Made by a program: the position numbers and the translations under genes. Below the pieces are notes generated by a model. The model searched no databases. It saw nothing but the letters and a program-made list of their open reading frames with translations, and was not told where the DNA came from. Of a stretch of DNA of 64,000 nt, positions 4,344-42,634 are shown one piece after another; position 1 is the stretch's first letter, and each line of letters starts with the position of its first letter. The stretch lies in contig NZ_RBCI01000012.1 in assembly GCF_003628535.1 (NCBI RefSeq), forward strand, positions 62,001 through 126,000, read 5' to 3'. This DNA comes from Flavisolibacter nicotianae. GTDB taxonomy: Bacteria > Bacteroidota > Bacteroidia > Chitinophagales > Chitinophagaceae.

Positions 4344-4402
4344 TATCGGATAAGCTTTTGTACCTTCCTACAAAGGTGCAAGCCTTCAAAAACAGACTGT
4401 TT

Positions 4403-6736
4403 ATGAAAAAGGTGTTTTTGCTGCTGGCAGCATTTTTCTTTTTACAACTGGCTTCCTTCTGTCAGGACACGGCCGTTCTCTCGCTAAAAACAGCGCTGCA
4501 AAAGGCGAAAGACGATACAACCCGATTGCATCTACACCTGGCGTTGGCCAGTGTCGGCAGCGCACAGGAAAAACAACGACACGCCGAAGCGGCCGTCAGC
4601 CTCGCGGATGCCCTCCTGAAGAGAACAGCGGGCAAGGCGGAAAGAAAACCCATCGTCATGCAACTAATTCGTGCTTACAGGCGGTTGGATTCGCTTTTTG
4701 CTGAAAGTGGGAACATGAACGCTGACATCTCAGTTGCCCATGCCCAACGACTGCTGCAACTTAATACAGAAATTGAAGACAGGAAGGGCATGGCAGAACA
4801 ACAGATAAGAATTGCTTACAACAAGCTATACAAAAACGACACAACTGGTTACCTTTCTTATTATCAGATGAGCCTCGCCAGCTCCCGGCAGGCAAACGAC
4901 ACGGCCCGTGTTGTGGACGCGTATCAAGGTCTTAGCTATTTTTACCTCTCCGCCGGCAATTTTTCCAAGGCCCTGGAAACGCTTCAAACAGGCCTTGCCA
5001 CCGCTAAAGAGATGAAGTATAAAAAAGGCATTGCTTATTGCCTGCTGCAACTGGCGGACATCTACCGGGACAACAACGAGGCGGCCCAGGCCCTGCAACA
5101 TTACCAAACAGCCCTGCCCATTTTATACGAGTTAAAAGACACCACCGATTTGTATATTGGCCTCGCCGCCCTCGGTGGTTATTATTACAAGCAGGCCAAC
5201 ACTCCCAAAACGATGGAGACCTACCAAAAGGTCATTGCGCTGGCAGAAGCCAAAAAGGATTTACGCGATAGGGTTCCATCCGTTTATAATTGGATGGGGC
5301 AGGTTTACAAGGATGCAAAGGACTATACCAAATCTATTGAACACTATCAAAAAAGCCTGGCAGGATTAAGAAAACAAAAAGATACTGCTTCACTAATAAA
5401 TGTTCCGCGGATAGAGTTTTATATCGCAGGCGTGCTTGGCGGCCTTGGCGACACGTACCAGGAAAAAGGAGATTTTGCAAAGGCGGCTGCTTATCATTTG
5501 CAGGAAGCACGGATGCATCAAAAATTCAAGTATGAAGCTGGCCTTGCTTGGGCTTATTTAGGAGTAGCACGGGGTTTTCTTTATCAGGGGAAACATACCG
5601 CAGCAAAGCAGTACAGCCACGAGGCGCTTAAACTGCTCCAAAAGCAGTATGCCTTGGATCCCATTAGTAAAGCACAGCTTCTGGCTGCTCAGGTCGACTC
5701 ACCCAGCGGCAACGGGGCTGAAGCACTCGCACATTACAAAGAATATGTTCGGTTAAGCAACCAGTTGCGGGGCGATGAAATCCGCAAAGCGGCGCAGGTG
5801 GAAACCTTTGATGCACAGTTTGCCCAACAAAAAGCGTTGGCAAAGGCGGAGCAGGAAAAACGGGAAGCGGTGGCAAAAGCCGAACTGAGGCAAGAGCAAA
5901 CAAAGCGGTATGCATTGTACGGCGGCATTGTACTCCTGGTAATTTTTGGAGCCTTTATGTTCAACCGCTTCCGTGTCACAAGCCAGCAAAAGCGAGTAAT
6001 TGAAAAACAGAAGGCCGTGGTGGAAACAGAGAAGCGGCGCAGCGATGAGTTGTTGCTTAATATTCTCCCTGCAGAAGTGGCCGAAGAACTAAAAGAAAAA
6101 GGGCGTACGGAAGCAAAACTGTTCGAGCAGGTAACTGTTTTGTTCACGGACTTTAAAGACTTCACGCAAACCGCAGAAAAACTCTCGCCAAGAGAATTGG
6201 TGGCGGAAATTGACGCCGCCTTTAGTTCATTTGATCACATTATCTCGAAGTACAACATCGAAAAAATCAAAACCATCGGCGACAGCTATATGTGTGTTGG
6301 TGGGCTGCCGGTTGCCAATAAAACCAATGCGGCAGATGTGGTAACCGCTGCACTCGAAATTCAACGCTACATGGAGCAACAAGTAGAAGAGCGGAAAAAA
6401 GCGGGCAAAGATGTTTTTGAAATACGCATTGGCATTCATACCGGTCCTGTGGTGGCAGGCATTGTAGGGGTGAAGAAATTTGCATATGATGTGTGGGGCG
6501 ACACGGTGAACATTGCCTCCCGTATGGAAAGCAGCGGCGAAGCAGGCAAGGTGAACATCAGCGGTGAGACCTATGAGATGGTAAAAGATGTTTTTCGTTG
6601 CTCGCACCGAGGCAAAATCAAGGCAAAAAACAAAGGGGAAATAGACATGTATTATGTCGAAGAAATTTTGCCGGACAAAGTAGCCCATCCAATAACAAAT
6701 GGCTTGGCAAAAGTTGGGCTAACAAACATAGGCTGA
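4403..6736 (+). CDS. TPR sensor with class III adenylate cyclase domain
   Basis: A 777-residue protein from the start at 4403, which gives a clean signal peptide (MKKVFLLL...ASFCQ); an in-frame codon at 4358 would add 15 non-signal residues. TPR units fill about residues 40-440. A coiled coil (440-500) and one membrane helix (about 503-522) follow, then a second coiled coil and the cyclase domain (about 570-750). Metal-binding aspartates are visible at Asp583 (FTDFKDF) and Asp627 (IGDSYM). The purine-selecting residues are Lys623 and Asp696 (YDVWGD), the pair known for adenylate rather than guanylate cyclases. It probably senses an external or envelope signal through the TPRs and makes cAMP inside the cell. 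Substrate choice is an inference from those two residues. Confidence 0.88.
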   Translation: MKKVFLLLAAFFFLQLASFCQDTAVLSLKTALQKAKDDTTRLHLHLALASVGSAQEKQRHAEAAVSLADALLKRTAGKAERKPIVMQLIRAYRRLDSLFAESGNMNADISVAHAQRLLQLNTEIEDRKGMAEQQIRIAYNKLYKNDTTGYLSYYQMSLASSRQANDTARVVDAYQGLSYFYLSAGNFSKALETLQTGLATAKEMKYKKGIAYCLLQLADIYRDNNEAAQALQHYQTALPILYELKDTTDLYIGLAALGGYYYKQANTPKTMETYQKVIALAEAKKDLRDRVPSVYNWMGQVYKDAKDYTKSIEHYQKSLAGLRKQKDTASLINVPRIEFYIAGVLGGLGDTYQEKGDFAKAAAYHLQEARMHQKFKYEAGLAWAYLGVARGFLYQGKHTAAKQYSHEALKLLQKQYALDPISKAQLLAAQVDSPSGNGAEALAHYKEYVRLSNQLRGDEIRKAAQVETFDAQFAQQKALAKAEQEKREAVAKAELRQEQTKRYALYGGIVLLVIFGAFMFNRFRVTSQQKRVIEKQKAVVETEKRRSDELLLNILPAEVAEELKEKGRTEAKLFEQVTVLFTDFKDFTQTAEKLSPRELVAEIDAAFSSFDHIISKYNIEKIKTIGDSYMCVGGLPVANKTNAADVVTAALEIQRYMEQQVEERKKAGKDVFEIRIGIHTGPVVAGIVGVKKFAYDVWGDTVNIASRMESSGEAGKVNISGETYEMVKDVFRCSHRGKIKAKNKGEIDMYYVEEILPDKVAHPITNGLAKVGLTNIG

Positions 6737-37123: not shown

Positions 37124-40100
37124 ATGTCCATTCATTCCATTTCGTTTACCGGCTCCCGGCAAGCGCTGCCCGAGACCATCACTACGCAAGACGACCTGCT
37201 ACAACTTCAGGAATCATTCGTTGTTAGCGCCGCTGCCAGGGGCGCAGGCGAAAAGCAAAAAATTCAACTCGACGACAAGTTGGTTGAGTTGGTCTTCGAC
37301 GACAACACCACCTGGCTTTGTCATGCCGATACGATCGAAGAAGTGTTTCCCGAAGCGGCCAATCCCACCCGTTCGGCCGACGGTGCCTTCGAATTGCCGC
37401 AGGTGCTTCGCAGCACTGGCGCCGAACGCGGTCTCGTCAGCGATATTGCGTTGAAAGCGGTCAACCTCTTTGCCAAAAAGGCCATCCAGCGAACGGTGGG
37501 GCAACTGGCCGGAGACCTCGAAAAAAAACAGCTCAATGACCGCATTGGCCTTTACCGCCTCGACGAAGATTTCAACCTCGTTGCTCCCGATTTTTCGAAG
37601 CCGGGCAATCCCTTCCTGCTTTTTATTCACGGAACGTCGTCTTCGACCAGCGGCTCGTTCGGCAAACTCGCCGGGACCGATGCCTGGAAGGACCTGGTCA
37701 GGCAGTACGGCCAAAACATCCTGGCCCTTCAACACGAAACCCTCACGTTGTCGCCCCTGCAAAACGTGGAAGTGTTAGTTCATAAATTGCCGGCAGGAAT
37801 TACCCTACACCTGGTGACCCATTCGCGGGGCGGACTGGTGGGCGACATCCTTTCACGGTATTGCAACAGCAACGCCGCCCTTCGTGGCTTCGACGAAAAC
37901 GAAGTGGCCTATTTGAAGGAAGAAGGACGCGATAAAGACGTTGAGATCATCAGCCGCCTGGCCGGTTTGTTTCAACAAAAAAATCTTTCGATTGCACGCT
38001 TTGTGCGGGTGGCATGCCCGGCTAACGGAACCATCCTTGCATCGCGGCGCATGGATAATTTTTTCAACGTCACGGCTAATTTGGTCGGCCTGGGAACCGG
38101 CATTGCAGCCAGCCCGGTTTACGGCGCCTTCCGTAACCTGATCGCGGCCGTGATCGATACAAAGAACGACACGGAAGCTCTGCCCGGAATCGAGGCCATG
38201 AACCCCGATTCGCCTTTCATCAAAGTGATGAATACTCCGGCATCGTCCATCGAGATCGACGACCCGCTGGTGGTGATCTCCGGCAACTGCAAGGCCGGCA
38301 TCAACCTGAAAGGATTGCTGATCATAGCCAGCAAGCTGTTTTACTTCACCGACAATGACCTCGTCGTCAACACGAAGTCGATGTACCAGGGCTCCAAACG
38401 GCACTGCAAACTGAAATACCTTTTTGACGAAGCGGGCAACGTGGACCATTTTCATTATTTCCAAAATGAAAAGACACGCAATGCCCTGCTCCTGGCTTTA
38501 AAGGGCGACGGTGATCTCTCGGCCGCAGGGTTTAAAACCGAAGAACAGGCAATCGTCATTGAGCAGGCAAGAAATATAGAGCTTCTCGGCCTGGAAGGTG
38601 GCGACCTGGTGCAAACGCCGGCCAGTGGCACCCGGCCAATTGCAGTGCTGCTGCCCGGTATCATGGGCTCTAACCTGTCGTTGAAAAACGATAAGATCTG
38701 GATCGATTACAAAGATTTCTTGTTTGGCGGGCTGGGAAAGCTGGCCATCAGCGAAAAGGGAATTGCGGCTTCTTCGATTGTAAAAACATCCTACGGCCGG
38801 CTGGCGGCATATTTAAATATCACCTATGACGTGGTTGTGTTTCCCTACGACTGGCGGCAGCCGCTGACCGAGTCGGCAAAGGAATTTGAAAAACTGGTGA
38901 CGAAGCTGTTGGAGCTGAATCAGCCCATCAAGATCATCGGGCATTCGATGGGTGGTGTGCTGGTGCGGGACTTTATCCTGCGTCACAACGAAACCTGGAA
39001 ACGGTTGAATGCAGCAGCGGGTTTCCGGCTGATCTTCCTGGGTGCACCACTGGGCGGCTCGTACCGCATTCCCGCTGTTTTGTTCGGGAAAGATGCCATC
39101 ATCGATAAATTAAGCATGATCGATATCGTGCACACGAAAAAACAATTGCTGGGGATCTTTTCCCGGTTCCCGGGTTTACTCAGCCTGCTCCCGCTGGCAA
39201 CAAGTCTCGACAACGATTTTGCCAAAGAGCTGACCTGGAGCCGCATGGCCGAAGCAACCGGCGACAGCGCCTGGCCGCTGCCGGTTGAAAAGGGGCAGGA
39301 CCTGGACTGGTTTTTCGACTACCGGGAAAAAAATAAAGAGACAAACGACATTGATTTTACCAACGTGGTTTACATCGCCGGTAAGGACAAGGCCACACCC
39401 TGCGGCTATCGTATCGACCAAACGGCCCGTGGTCCCGAACTGGTATTTTTAAGTACAGGCGAGGGCGACCAGAGTGTGACCTGGGAAACGGGGATTCCCA
39501 AAAAACTGATCGACAACGACTCGGTCTACTACGTGAATGTAACCCACGGCTCACTCGGCAACGCACCGCAGATTTTTGACGGCATCGCCGAAATTTTAGC
39601 CAAAGGCAAAACAAGCCTGCTCTCCAAAGCAAGACCGGTGGTGAGGGGTGAGGAAAAAGTATTCAAATCACCCGAACTCCGCGATCTCGACCTGACGGAA
39701 ACCGGCGTGGAAAAAACCCTTCTTGGCCTCGAACCACAGGAAGAAAAGGCAAGAGAAGAGCGGCCTGTTGACGTGGTGGTGAGTCACGGCGACCTGAATT
39801 TTGCGCTGTACCCGGTGCTGGCGGGCCATTTTTTAAATGATGGTATTTTGTACGCCGAAGCAACGATCGACAAAATGCTCGACGGTGCGCTGACTGAACG
39901 CCACCGCCTGGGAATTTACCCCGGTGACATTGGTACCAGCAAGGTGCAGTTTTTAGAAAACGGCAAAGGCGCCATCATTGTGGGTTTGGGAAAGTTTGGT
40001 TTGCTGACGTCTTCCCTGCTGACGCAAACAGTGGAACAGGGAATTGCCAACTACCTGATTGAAATAAACAAAAAGCAGGCATCGGATGCCGCCAGTGTGC

Positions 40101-42634
40101 TCCAGGCAGTCGACAAAGGCGTTGTTGCGTTTTTGGCGGGCAGATCGAATGGAGTTTCGACGGACGAAATAAACCGGGATGTTGCCCGGCAGGAAAAAGA
40201 ATTGAACGCATTTAAGAAAAGCCTGGCCGAAACACTGCGCTCGGGGCAGCCGCAAAAGCTGGGCGTTTCCGCTCTTGTCATTGCATCGGGCTATGGCGGG
40301 CTTTCGATCGAGAGTTCCATGAGTGCTGTTATCCAGGGGGTTCAAAATGCCAATGCACGCATTGCCGAATTGCATCGCGGACGCTACAGCCTTGTTGAAT
40401 GCATCGAATTCATTGAGCTGTACGAAGACCGTGCGCTAAGCTGTTTCTACTCGCTGAGCAAGATGGCCAAAGGCGGTGCCGGCGGTCCCAGCGTTCGGAT
40501 CGCGAAAAAAGCAATCAGGCGGACCTTTGGCGCCAAACGGCGCATCCCGGCGGAGATGTCCGAAGGCTGGTGGAACCGGATCACGGTACGGGCAGACGAA
40601 AAATCACTCGAAAGTAAAGTGCGTCACCAACTGTGTTTTACCGCGTCCACCCTGGGTGCAAGGGAAGAAAGCCGCAATCTCTTTATCAACCCCGCTGCGT
40701 TGCAGGACACGATCCGGCAAAGTTCCGACAGCAACCTGTGGTCGCCGCGGTTGGGAAAAACACTTTTCGAAATGCTGCTGCCCCTGGACTTCAAAGAGCA
40801 GTTCAAGCGACGGTTCAATATCAATTGGATTTTGGATTCCTATACGGCAGCCTTTCCGTGGGAACTGCTGCAGGACACCGCCACCGAAGCCATGCCGCTT
40901 TGTGTAAATGCGGGCATGGTGCGGCAGATGGTAACGCGGGATTTCCGGCTGAACATCAATGCCGTTGCCGCGAACAACGCACTGGTCGTAGCCGAACCGC
41001 AACTGAATGGTTTTCTGCCCGCCCTCCCGGGTGCGTTGCGGGAAGGCACGAAGGTGACGGAATGGCTGGAAAAAAATGGACTCAAGGTCAATGCCCTGCT
41101 GCAGGAAACGGCCGGCAGGATCCTTCCTGCTCTCTTTGCCGACGATTACAAGATTATTCACCTGGCTGGTCATGGCACGTTCAACAAGGACGAACCCGAA
41201 AGCTCGGGAATGGTGATCGGTGAGAACAGTTTTCTTACCACGGCCGAAATTCAAAACATGAGCACCGTGCCCGAGCTGGTTTTTGTCAACTGCTGCTTTT
41301 TGGGAAGAACCGATTCGGAGGCCGAAGAGTTTTACCGCAACACCTACCGGCTTGCTGCCAACATCGGCACGCAACTGATCGATAACGGCGTGAAGGCGGT
41401 TGTGGTAGCCGGTTGGGCCGTCAATGATGAAGCGGCCTTGCGCTTCACCGAAGTTTTTTACCAGGCCATGTTTGGCGGCGAATGTTTTGGCGACGCGATA
41501 CGGCTGGCCCGCAGTGCGGTTTATGAAGAGTTTCATACCGTCAGCAATACCTGGGGCGCTTACCAGTGTTATGGCGATCCGTTCTACAAACTCCGCAACG
41601 GGCAGGATGGAAAACTAAAAACAGACCTGGAATTTGTCATTGCCGAACAGGCCGAGATTGCGTTGAGCAACCTGCAAAGCGAAAGCCATACTGGCTATTT
41701 TTCGCAGGCAACCATTCTGAAGAAGCTGAAGGAAATTTCCGATGCCGTGGATGCCGCGCAGATCCGGGATGCCGAGATCACTGAAAAGGAAGCCCTTATT
41801 TATACTGCTCTTTCCGAGTACGACAAGGCGATTCAAAAATTTGAAAGCCTGTTGAGCATGGAGAACGCCAATTTTTCGGTGAAAAGCCTCGAGCAATACA
41901 GCAATGTGCGGATGAAAAAATACGTGGCCGATTACCTGAAAGCATCGCAGGACAACAAAAAGCCGGGCGCAGAAGAACGCAGGACGTGGGTGGCGGAGGC
42001 AGATAAAGTGATCAATGGCCTGGAAAGCCTGCTGCTGATCAGCCCCACGGTAGAACGCTACAATCTTTTAGGTAGTGCCTACAAGCGCAAAGGGATCCTG
42101 TGTGCCACGGCCGCGGAAAAAAAGAAAGCCTATTCCATGGCAGCCTATTATTACCAAAAAGCACATGCGCAGGAGGGGAAAAAATACACGTCCTATGCCC
42201 TGACCAACTGGTATGAACTGGAAAGCATCCTGGCCCTGACCGGCGACCGTAAATGGAAAAGCGAAGTGCAGGTAGACGGAAAGGAAAGCTATGCGCTGCC
42301 CGCAAAAACGGCCGTGCAAAGCCAGGTGAAAAAACTCATGGAGGAAGCAAAAAAAACACAGGGCCAGTCCGACGATTACTGGAACCTCGTTGTGGATCCC
42401 AATTGCCGGCTTTGTCTCCAGGTGGTGAATAACACGGCTGCAAAAGACGGGTGGGACAAGTTGGAAACTGCCTACAGGGACGTGTGGAGCAGGGCCGGAT
42501 CGAAAGGCGACAAGTTTGCCGAACTGGAACACCTGCAACTGTTGGCCGATGCCCTGTCCATCGGGAAAGAAAAGGCCAACGGTTTGAAAGAGCACATTGA
42601 AACACTGAAAAACAGTCTGGAAAAAATGTTGTAG
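37124..42634 (+). CDS. 1836-residue CHAT protease-dual alpha/beta hydrolase protein
   Basis: A very large cytosolic protein without signal or membrane segments. Domains in order: an N-terminal region (1-140); alpha/beta hydrolase 1 (about 150-430) with FIHGTSSS and nucleophile Ser234 in THSRGG; hydrolase 2 (about 500-860), LCAT/lipase-like, with LLPGIMGSN and Ser608 in GHSMGG; a macro/M17-N-like region (about 880-1150, GIYPGDIGTSKV and AIIVGLGKFG); a CHAT caspase-like domain (about 1170-1510) with His1350 in HLAGHGTF and Cys1391 in FVNCCFLG, ending YGDPFYKL; and a helical TPR-like tail (1520-1836). CHAT proteases cut proteins in bacterial death and defence pathways such as Craspase. Here the candidate targets, two lipase-like domains, share the chain. 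Function is unknown; an abortive-infection or stress lipase is an inference. Two enzyme genes follow on the same strand. Confidence 0.85.
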   Translation: MSIHSISFTGSRQALPETITTQDDLLQLQESFVVSAAARGAGEKQKIQLDDKLVELVFDDNTTWLCHADTIEEVFPEAANPTRSADGAFELPQVLRSTGAERGLVSDIALKAVNLFAKKAIQRTVGQLAGDLEKKQLNDRIGLYRLDEDFNLVAPDFSKPGNPFLLFIHGTSSSTSGSFGKLAGTDAWKDLVRQYGQNILALQHETLTLSPLQNVEVLVHKLPAGITLHLVTHSRGGLVGDILSRYCNSNAALRGFDENEVAYLKEEGRDKDVEIISRLAGLFQQKNLSIARFVRVACPANGTILASRRMDNFFNVTANLVGLGTGIAASPVYGAFRNLIAAVIDTKNDTEALPGIEAMNPDSPFIKVMNTPASSIEIDDPLVVISGNCKAGINLKGLLIIASKLFYFTDNDLVVNTKSMYQGSKRHCKLKYLFDEAGNVDHFHYFQNEKTRNALLLALKGDGDLSAAGFKTEEQAIVIEQARNIELLGLEGGDLVQTPASGTRPIAVLLPGIMGSNLSLKNDKIWIDYKDFLFGGLGKLAISEKGIAASSIVKTSYGRLAAYLNITYDVVVFPYDWRQPLTESAKEFEKLVTKLLELNQPIKIIGHSMGGVLVRDFILRHNETWKRLNAAAGFRLIFLGAPLGGSYRIPAVLFGKDAIIDKLSMIDIVHTKKQLLGIFSRFPGLLSLLPLATSLDNDFAKELTWSRMAEATGDSAWPLPVEKGQDLDWFFDYREKNKETNDIDFTNVVYIAGKDKATPCGYRIDQTARGPELVFLSTGEGDQSVTWETGIPKKLIDNDSVYYVNVTHGSLGNAPQIFDGIAEILAKGKTSLLSKARPVVRGEEKVFKSPELRDLDLTETGVEKTLLGLEPQEEKAREERPVDVVVSHGDLNFALYPVLAGHFLNDGILYAEATIDKMLDGALTERHRLGIYPGDIGTSKVQFLENGKGAIIVGLGKFGLLTSSLLTQTVEQGIANYLIEINKKQASDAASVLQAVDKGVVAFLAGRSNGVSTDEINRDVARQEKELNAFKKSLAETLRSGQPQKLGVSALVIASGYGGLSIESSMSAVIQGVQNANARIAELHRGRYSLVECIEFIELYEDRALSCFYSLSKMAKGGAGGPSVRIAKKAIRRTFGAKRRIPAEMSEGWWNRITVRADEKSLESKVRHQLCFTASTLGAREESRNLFINPAALQDTIRQSSDSNLWSPRLGKTLFEMLLPLDFKEQFKRRFNINWILDSYTAAFPWELLQDTATEAMPLCVNAGMVRQMVTRDFRLNINAVAANNALVVAEPQLNGFLPALPGALREGTKVTEWLEKNGLKVNALLQETAGRILPALFADDYKIIHLAGHGTFNKDEPESSGMVIGENSFLTTAEIQNMSTVPELVFVNCCFLGRTDSEAEEFYRNTYRLAANIGTQLIDNGVKAVVVAGWAVNDEAALRFTEVFYQAMFGGECFGDAIRLARSAVYEEFHTVSNTWGAYQCYGDPFYKLRNGQDGKLKTDLEFVIAEQAEIALSNLQSESHTGYFSQATILKKLKEISDAVDAAQIRDAEITEKEALIYTALSEYDKAIQKFESLLSMENANFSVKSLEQYSNVRMKKYVADYLKASQDNKKPGAEERRTWVAEADKVINGLESLLLISPTVERYNLLGSAYKRKGILCATAAEKKKAYSMAAYYYQKAHAQEGKKYTSYALTNWYELESILALTGDRKWKSEVQVDGKESYALPAKTAVQSQVKKLMEEAKKTQGQSDDYWNLVVDPNCRLCLQVVNNTAAKDGWDKLETAYRDVWSRAGSKGDKFAELEHLQLLADALSIGKEKANGLKEHIETLKNSLEKML

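Follow-up and report, generated by a model that had tools for sequence, protein, structure and literature searches.

A CHAT protease joined to two lipase-like hydrolases and a TPR-S tail in one recurrent bacterial chain, a candidate effector of a conflict system

What could a bacterium gain from carrying a caspase-like protease and two lipase-like enzymes on one polypeptide chain? The question is raised by a single intact gene at positions 37124–42634, on the forward strand, of the 64,000-nucleotide stretch of the Flavisolibacter nicotianae genome that was analysed as a whole (hereafter, the window). Starting with ATG and open throughout, it encodes a protein of 1836 residues and has no second copy, being the sole match in its own 6.09-Mb genome (E 1e-3). 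A sequence-only reading had described a CHAT protease and two lipase-like hydrolases in this chain, and this description was borne out by conservation and by Pfam matches over the curated cut-offs. The modules follow each other in the order DUF7379 hydrolase (2.1e-34, in two stretches, the best at residues 165–246), LCAT-like hydrolase (2.2e-12, residues 570–717), Peptidase_M17_N-like region, CHAT (PF12770, 4.5e-30, residues 1209–1485) and TPR-S tail (6.2e-9, residues 1565–1697). A search of NCBIfam with the window protein gave no match, and PADLOC returned a weak match to BovA alone (1.7e-5), lying inside CHAT.

Conservation was followed over 33 full-length rows, namely 28 from Bacteroidota (the window protein included, two being cut by contig ends) and five from plasmids. 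S234, D412, H442, S608, D782, H808, H1346, H1350 and C1391 are each kept in 33/33 rows. As the other rows are 28–50% identical to the window protein, such retention of the catalytic residues is more than chance would give, despite a few near-duplicates (L071/L072 and L102/L103). Ser234, Ser608, His1350 and Cys1391, named beforehand as the key residues, are all present and invariant, and no row had lost the CHAT Cys/His or both serines, the loss that had been named as counting against the proposal. When 25 members were scanned at E 0.05, DUF7379, LCAT and CHAT were found in 25/25, TPR-S in 24/25 and Peptidase_M17_N in 3/25. Judged from sequence, the five-module architecture is real and recurrent.

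This conservation is unevenly distributed along the chain. Over 29 of the 33 rows, the mean pairwise identity is 38.5–41% in the hydrolases and CHAT and 35% in the M17_N-like region, against 22–23% in the N-terminus and the tail and 25% in the TPR-S core. The N-terminal region (residues 1–140; 37124–37543) has no Pfam match and is variable, with R39 kept in 32/33 rows (one gap) and W64 in 26/33. The helical-repeat tail of the sequence-only reading (41621–42631, with its TPR-S core at 41816–42214) is thus a recognised TPR-S region in nearly all members scanned, as variable as the N-terminus and far more so than the enzymes. Such a pattern of identities may be that of constant effector modules combined with changing input parts.

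The first hydrolase (residues ~160–470; 37601–38533) carries its nucleophile Ser234 (codon 37823–37825) in the motif THSRGG, and Asp412 (38357–38359) and His442 (38447–38449) are the residues that would complete the triad. The similarity of the DUF7379 region to lipases of the PDB is weak (best 0.049), and hhalign aligned it to the second hydrolase at 85% over 51 columns around the nucleophile. In the second hydrolase (residues 500–830; 38621–39613), Ser608 (38945–38947) lies in GHSMGG, with Asp782 (39467–39469) and His808 (39545–39547) as its proposed partners. Its profile matched group XV phospholipase A2 in the PDB at 1.3e-8, together with LCAT structures, and membership of the LCAT/group XV phospholipase A2 family is illustrated by both this profile match and the complete Ser/Asp/His set. 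The CHAT domain (40748–41578) keeps the His/Cys dyad, catalytic by analogy, formed by His1350 (41171–41173, in HLAGHG) and Cys1391 (41294–41296, in NCCFLG), which supports its membership along with the profile over cut-off. The best PDB match of the CHAT profile was 8tl0 (9e-4), an entry named SAVED-CHAT in PMC11417357.

The identity of the region between the second hydrolase and CHAT (residues 874–1134; 39743–40525) is less direct. Pfam Peptidase_M17_N, which we take to be a macro-like domain, exceeds its cut-off at this position in short relatives (2.7e-9, 4.1e-8 and 6.3e-7). Among full-length members, it was detected at E ≤0.05 in the 3 of 25 already mentioned, the best value being 0.0043, and below cut-off in two members of a further scan; the window protein has no Pfam match to it. 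The profile of the region gave cytosol aminopeptidase as its top PDB match at a non-significant 0.096, and direct profile comparison with a few genuine M17 N-domains was negative. This comparison was run with nine sequences, three of which (L138, L140 and L142) are apparent wrong-frame ORFs, and then with the other six. The macro-like region of the earlier proposal is thus supported indirectly, its placement in the window protein resting on the short relatives. The window protein carries in this region an insertion of about 55 residues (~988–1042; 40085–40250); each of the other 18 aligned rows lacks it or has a much shorter one.

The tail profile found designed TPR proteins as its best PDB matches (2.2e-8). 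Matches between the tail and SHP-2 phosphatase (0.004) were set aside as probable chance because they fall on a poorly conserved stretch. Structure models of the two half-chains, built from two-row alignments, were poor (mean pLDDT of 42.6 and 39.6), and no fold claim therefore rests on them. In these low-confidence models, the all-helical tail (residues ~1510–1710) is the best-modelled part (ten-residue mean pLDDT of 53–86). Stretches of comparable pLDDT occur in the first hydrolase, which shows a strand-Ser-helix arrangement at its nucleophile.

Relatives of the protein are sparsely spread. Of the 195 genomes searched in the window's family, 30 match it at E 1e-3, 16 of them with a full-length gene (the window genome included, and one gene split across contigs), one with a fragment and 13 inside the CHAT part only; both same-genus genomes of this search lack the gene. 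The fragment (G086; L096 4707–6194), a protein of 495 residues that matches residues 2–235 with 45% identity, could be a decayed copy. With the threshold tightened to E 1e-20, 9 of 395 genomes of the phylum and 13 of 248 of the order matched, yielding four and eight further full-length genes, respectively (contig ends truncate two of the eight), and three short relatives, one of which is interrupted by a stop. In one genome (G440) the CHAT part alone passed E 1e-20, DUF7379 being also present. A pattern scan of genome contigs added one gene, from Chitinophaga oryziterrae. Twelve plasmid records match, seven of which cover at least 74% of the query (Azotobacter, Ensifer and Paracoccus), and five of these seven were taken into the alignment. 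A phage origin was rejected: no match was found in 50,697 phage records, and viral contigs gave three weak matches, in the LCAT part alone, and nothing when searched with the profiles of CHAT and DUF7379.

A quick tree was built from the 33 rows with SH-aLRT support only and a midpoint root, and is limited by long branches and uneven composition. In it, the plasmid proteins form one clade and the window's own family two separate ones, one of which encloses a protein of a different family of the class (support 96). Patchy spread, absence from the same-genus genomes, discordant tree and plasmid copies together suggest horizontal movement of the gene. Besides, the modules occur in other combinations. 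Eight short or rearranged relatives combine the first hydrolase with CHAT, the second hydrolase with CHAT (3/4 of these having an M17_N match in between), or M17_N, below cut-off, with CHAT and TPR-S, or else hold the second hydrolase in a record annotated as trypsin-like, and all eight keep the catalytic residues of their aligned modules. A DUF7362-DUF7379-CHAT protein (L094 9188–12994) raises the possibility that DUF7362 marks an alternative N-terminal domain of the family, and a protein with caspase (C14) and amidase domains (L093 11659–14499) is encoded directly upstream of a short hydrolase-CHAT relative. On a Qingshengfaniella plasmid (L108 8833–11355), an LCAT-like hydrolase occurs in a protein annotated as a trypsin-like peptidase, a possible swap of protease type.

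Neighbour clustering gave no constant operon partner; this candidate was rejected, the largest neighbour family spanning at most 4 of 33 loci. Many relatives have ordinary-looking surroundings, by Pfam or by eye, and the larger part are stand-alone genes. Several loci are of another kind. In one (L065, G006), the full-length gene is immediately preceded, on its own strand, by genes for a DUF4062-iSTAND protein, a MoxR-type AAA protein and a protein of 1206 residues whose receiver-like stretch scores below cut-off; a vWA domain was found there neither by Pfam nor by its DxSxS motif. At another (L067, G007), a patatin and a further TPR-S protein, which also matches MAP3K_TRAF_bd, are encoded upstream, and a third (L090, G724) has downstream a nucleoside-deoxyribosyltransferase-like gene (just below cut-off) with TIR, patatin and LRR-Roc-COR-TIR genes. 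A TIR gene also adjoins the loci L073 and L089. In Rhizobium, M17_N-CHAT-TPR-S forms a gene of its own (L105) with TIR-nSTAND1-WD40 genes on both sides and small genes between. Two other rearranged relatives are followed by a SIR2-pYEATS gene about 0.4 kb downstream (Rhizobium, L106) and by an AAA-SIR2 gene just downstream (Ruegeria, L107), and the Azotobacter copy (L100) adjoins a recombinase and a type I restriction system.

The plasmid loci also carry large upstream genes. On two Paracoccus plasmids (L102 5568–8852 and L104 5354–8599), the full-length protein is preceded by a gene of ~1090 codons whose products are ~48% identical and which overlaps the full-length start in L104; the same gene is annotated in two pieces in L103, and one of these upstream proteins matches SBP_bac_3 at 1.4e-6. 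On the Ensifer plasmid (L101 3893–7804), the upstream protein has 1303 residues with a P-loop and appears STAND NTPase-like by eye.

The proximity to TIR genes was quantified by searching TIR_2 in the 27 genomes of the G-numbered full-length loci, which hold 68 such domains. A TIR domain lies within 7 kb at 4 of the 27 loci (G028, G255, G724 and G763), where genome sizes and TIR numbers would lead one to expect 0.17 (P ~2e-5, an optimistic value because TIR genes had already been noticed when the test was chosen); the other 23, including the window, have none at this distance. Among 76 of the 90 listed neighbour proteins, PADLOC matched 100 families, against 8 among 76 controls drawn from 20 regions elsewhere in these genomes, a crude count since one protein may match several families (one SNF2 helicase probably accounts for many). 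According to the sequence-only reading, enrichment beside defence genes would support immunity, and confinement to housekeeping metabolic operons would count against the proposal. Several relatives do lie near TIR, SIR2, DUF4062-iSTAND/MoxR or patatin genes, but the window copy and the larger part of the relatives have neighbours that look ordinary.

The window copy itself is flanked by glucokinase and M19-like dipeptidase genes, beyond which lie nitrilase-type, GH20, fucosidase and creatininase genes. Both flanking genes are uncommon in the genus, the glucokinase gene having any match in 1/17 other genomes and the M19-like gene in 2/17. The eight proteins neighbouring the gene gave no PADLOC match, and iSTAND, MoxR and vWA were absent from the neighbours scanned with Pfam. 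The genome contains four TIR domains, all on contigs other than that of the window, and the window protein is the only TPR-S protein found in it.

As a possible explanation of these results, we tentatively favour an effector that would act in the cytosol, with several enzymes on a single chain, in a conflict system of the anti-phage or abortive-infection type; a signal would switch on its CHAT protease and lipases. This reading draws on the modules, the catalytic residues kept in all 33 full-length and all eight rearranged relatives, the patchy spread, the plasmids and discordant tree, the TIR, SIR2 and iSTAND neighbours, and precedents. Under such a mechanism, the signal would be read by the TPR-S tail, to which the M17_N/macro-like region may contribute. 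It would most likely be an ADP-ribose-type nucleotide, produced by a TIR, SIR2 or DUF4062 enzyme whose gene lies close by or at another locus; a partner protein is also possible. The signal would switch on the CHAT protease, which would then cut its own chain or proteins of the cell; the two lipase-like hydrolases would attack membrane lipids, and the infected cell would stop or die. We infer the cell location, the signal, the order of events, the substrates and the role in immunity of the proposed effector. The role in immunity, already put forward from the sequence, is plausible and is partly backed by the TIR, SIR2, DUF4062-iSTAND, MoxR and patatin genes near several relatives, although the window copy sits among ordinary genes.

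The nature of the signal is where the nearest alternative departs from this explanation. The same kind of effector could be switched by a protein in place of a nucleotide: the N-terminus and the TPR tail would bind an NTPase of the STAND or MoxR type, or else a protein from a phage. The position of the L065 relative directly downstream of DUF4062-iSTAND and MoxR-type genes, that of the rearranged L105 relative between two TIR-nSTAND1-WD40 genes, and that of the Paracoccus copies behind their ~1090-residue gene, with overlapping start in one plasmid, would agree with a protein switch, as would the variability of the N-terminus and tail. However, a constant partner is missing, no neighbour family exceeding 4 of 33 loci, and the authors of TPR-S are said to describe a sensor of nucleotide signals; we consider a protein switch somewhat unlikely. 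Burroughs and Aravind reportedly predicted in 2020 that TPR-S reads NAD-derived nucleotide signals. A bolder version of the nucleotide scheme appears unlikely as well: an ADPR nucleotide made by a TIR, SIR2 or DUF4062 enzyme would act on TPR-S and the macro-like region, CHAT would cut its own chain, and the two phospholipases thus freed would dissolve the membrane. If true, it would describe a suicide device that resembles pyroptosis but works without a gasdermin, has travelled between Bacteroidota and the plasmids of proteobacteria and can plug into different sensing systems.

The protein might instead belong to ordinary physiology, as a stress- or lipid-turnover enzyme, with proteolysis serving to trim or degrade the chain and hydrolysis to remodel lipids. 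The glucokinase, nitrilase-type, GH20, fucosidase and creatininase genes around the window copy speak for such a role, as do the ordinary-looking genes around many relatives. The full-length gene is, however, present in only 16 of 195 genomes of the family, absent from two genomes of the same genus and devoid of a conserved operon, and the plasmid copies, the discordant tree and a TIR proximity above expectation also argue against this role, which is quite improbable. As for an effector of competition or predation delivered into other bacteria, a large multi-enzyme chain with lipase-like domains could suit this purpose, yet no obvious signal peptide is visible in the translation by inspection, no delivery domain was matched by Pfam at E 0.05 and no neighbour family recurs widely beside the gene, making delivery very improbable.

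In VMAP systems, the caspase-type domain always occurs with a neighbouring alpha/beta-hydrolase gene (Kaur et al., 2020; PMC7159879). These MoxR-vWA ternary systems, predicted to act in conflict, share with the window protein a caspase-superfamily protease accompanied by an alpha/beta-hydrolase; their protease and hydrolase are encoded in neighbouring genes with MoxR, vWA and VMAP, whereas the window protein is one chain, often alone. Of the iSTAND MoxR-vWA ternary system, the L065 locus has iSTAND and MoxR-type AAA, with vWA not found, and none of the three occurs among the scanned neighbours of the window copy. In Thoeris, N7-cADPR made by TIR activates a caspase-like protease, and His-ADPR activates a TM-macro effector (PMC12847820); type IV Thoeris resembles our case by its caspase-like protease and a possible NAD-derived signal, but the window copy has no TIR gene beside it and adds two lipase-like domains and a TPR-S tail. 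DUF4062 proteins are described as TIR-like NADases in a preprint (PMC13174449). TPR-CHAT/Csx29 (Craspase) and SAVED-CHAT (8tl0) likewise join a CHAT protease to a regulatory part, while the window protein has extra lipase-like domains and no SAVED, and 36 ORFs of the window gave no cas match. In the canu system, a caspase can activate a partner pro-nuclease (PMC12799240), and a protease possibly activating a second enzyme is common to both; this enzyme is a nuclease in canu, and the window protein has lipase-like domains instead. LCAT and group XV phospholipase A2 share with the second hydrolase its profile and its Ser/Asp/His, and differ in that the window hydrolase is part of a multi-enzyme bacterial chain.

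No description of the five-module chain was found in the available excerpts of the literature searched, nor any experiment on this protein in that literature. If the favoured reading is right, a bacterial caspase-like protease and phospholipases would form one regulated machine with its own sensor, the predicted partnership of caspase and alpha/beta-hydrolase in bacterial immunity could be tested with a single gene, and such work would put to the test the reading of NAD-derived signals by TPR-S domains.

SAVED and CRISPR readings of the locus were also tried and rejected: the chain has no Pfam match to SAVED at E 0.05, and no cas gene is named among the six families that PADLOC matched in 36 chosen ORFs of the window. 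These families comprise only MzaA, PycC-type cyclase and TPR matches. The MzaA match (1e-40) was not traced to an ORF. The PycC-type matches probably originate from a gene at 4358–6736 of the window, in which TPR repeats are fused to an adenylate/guanylate cyclase domain (8.6e-56).
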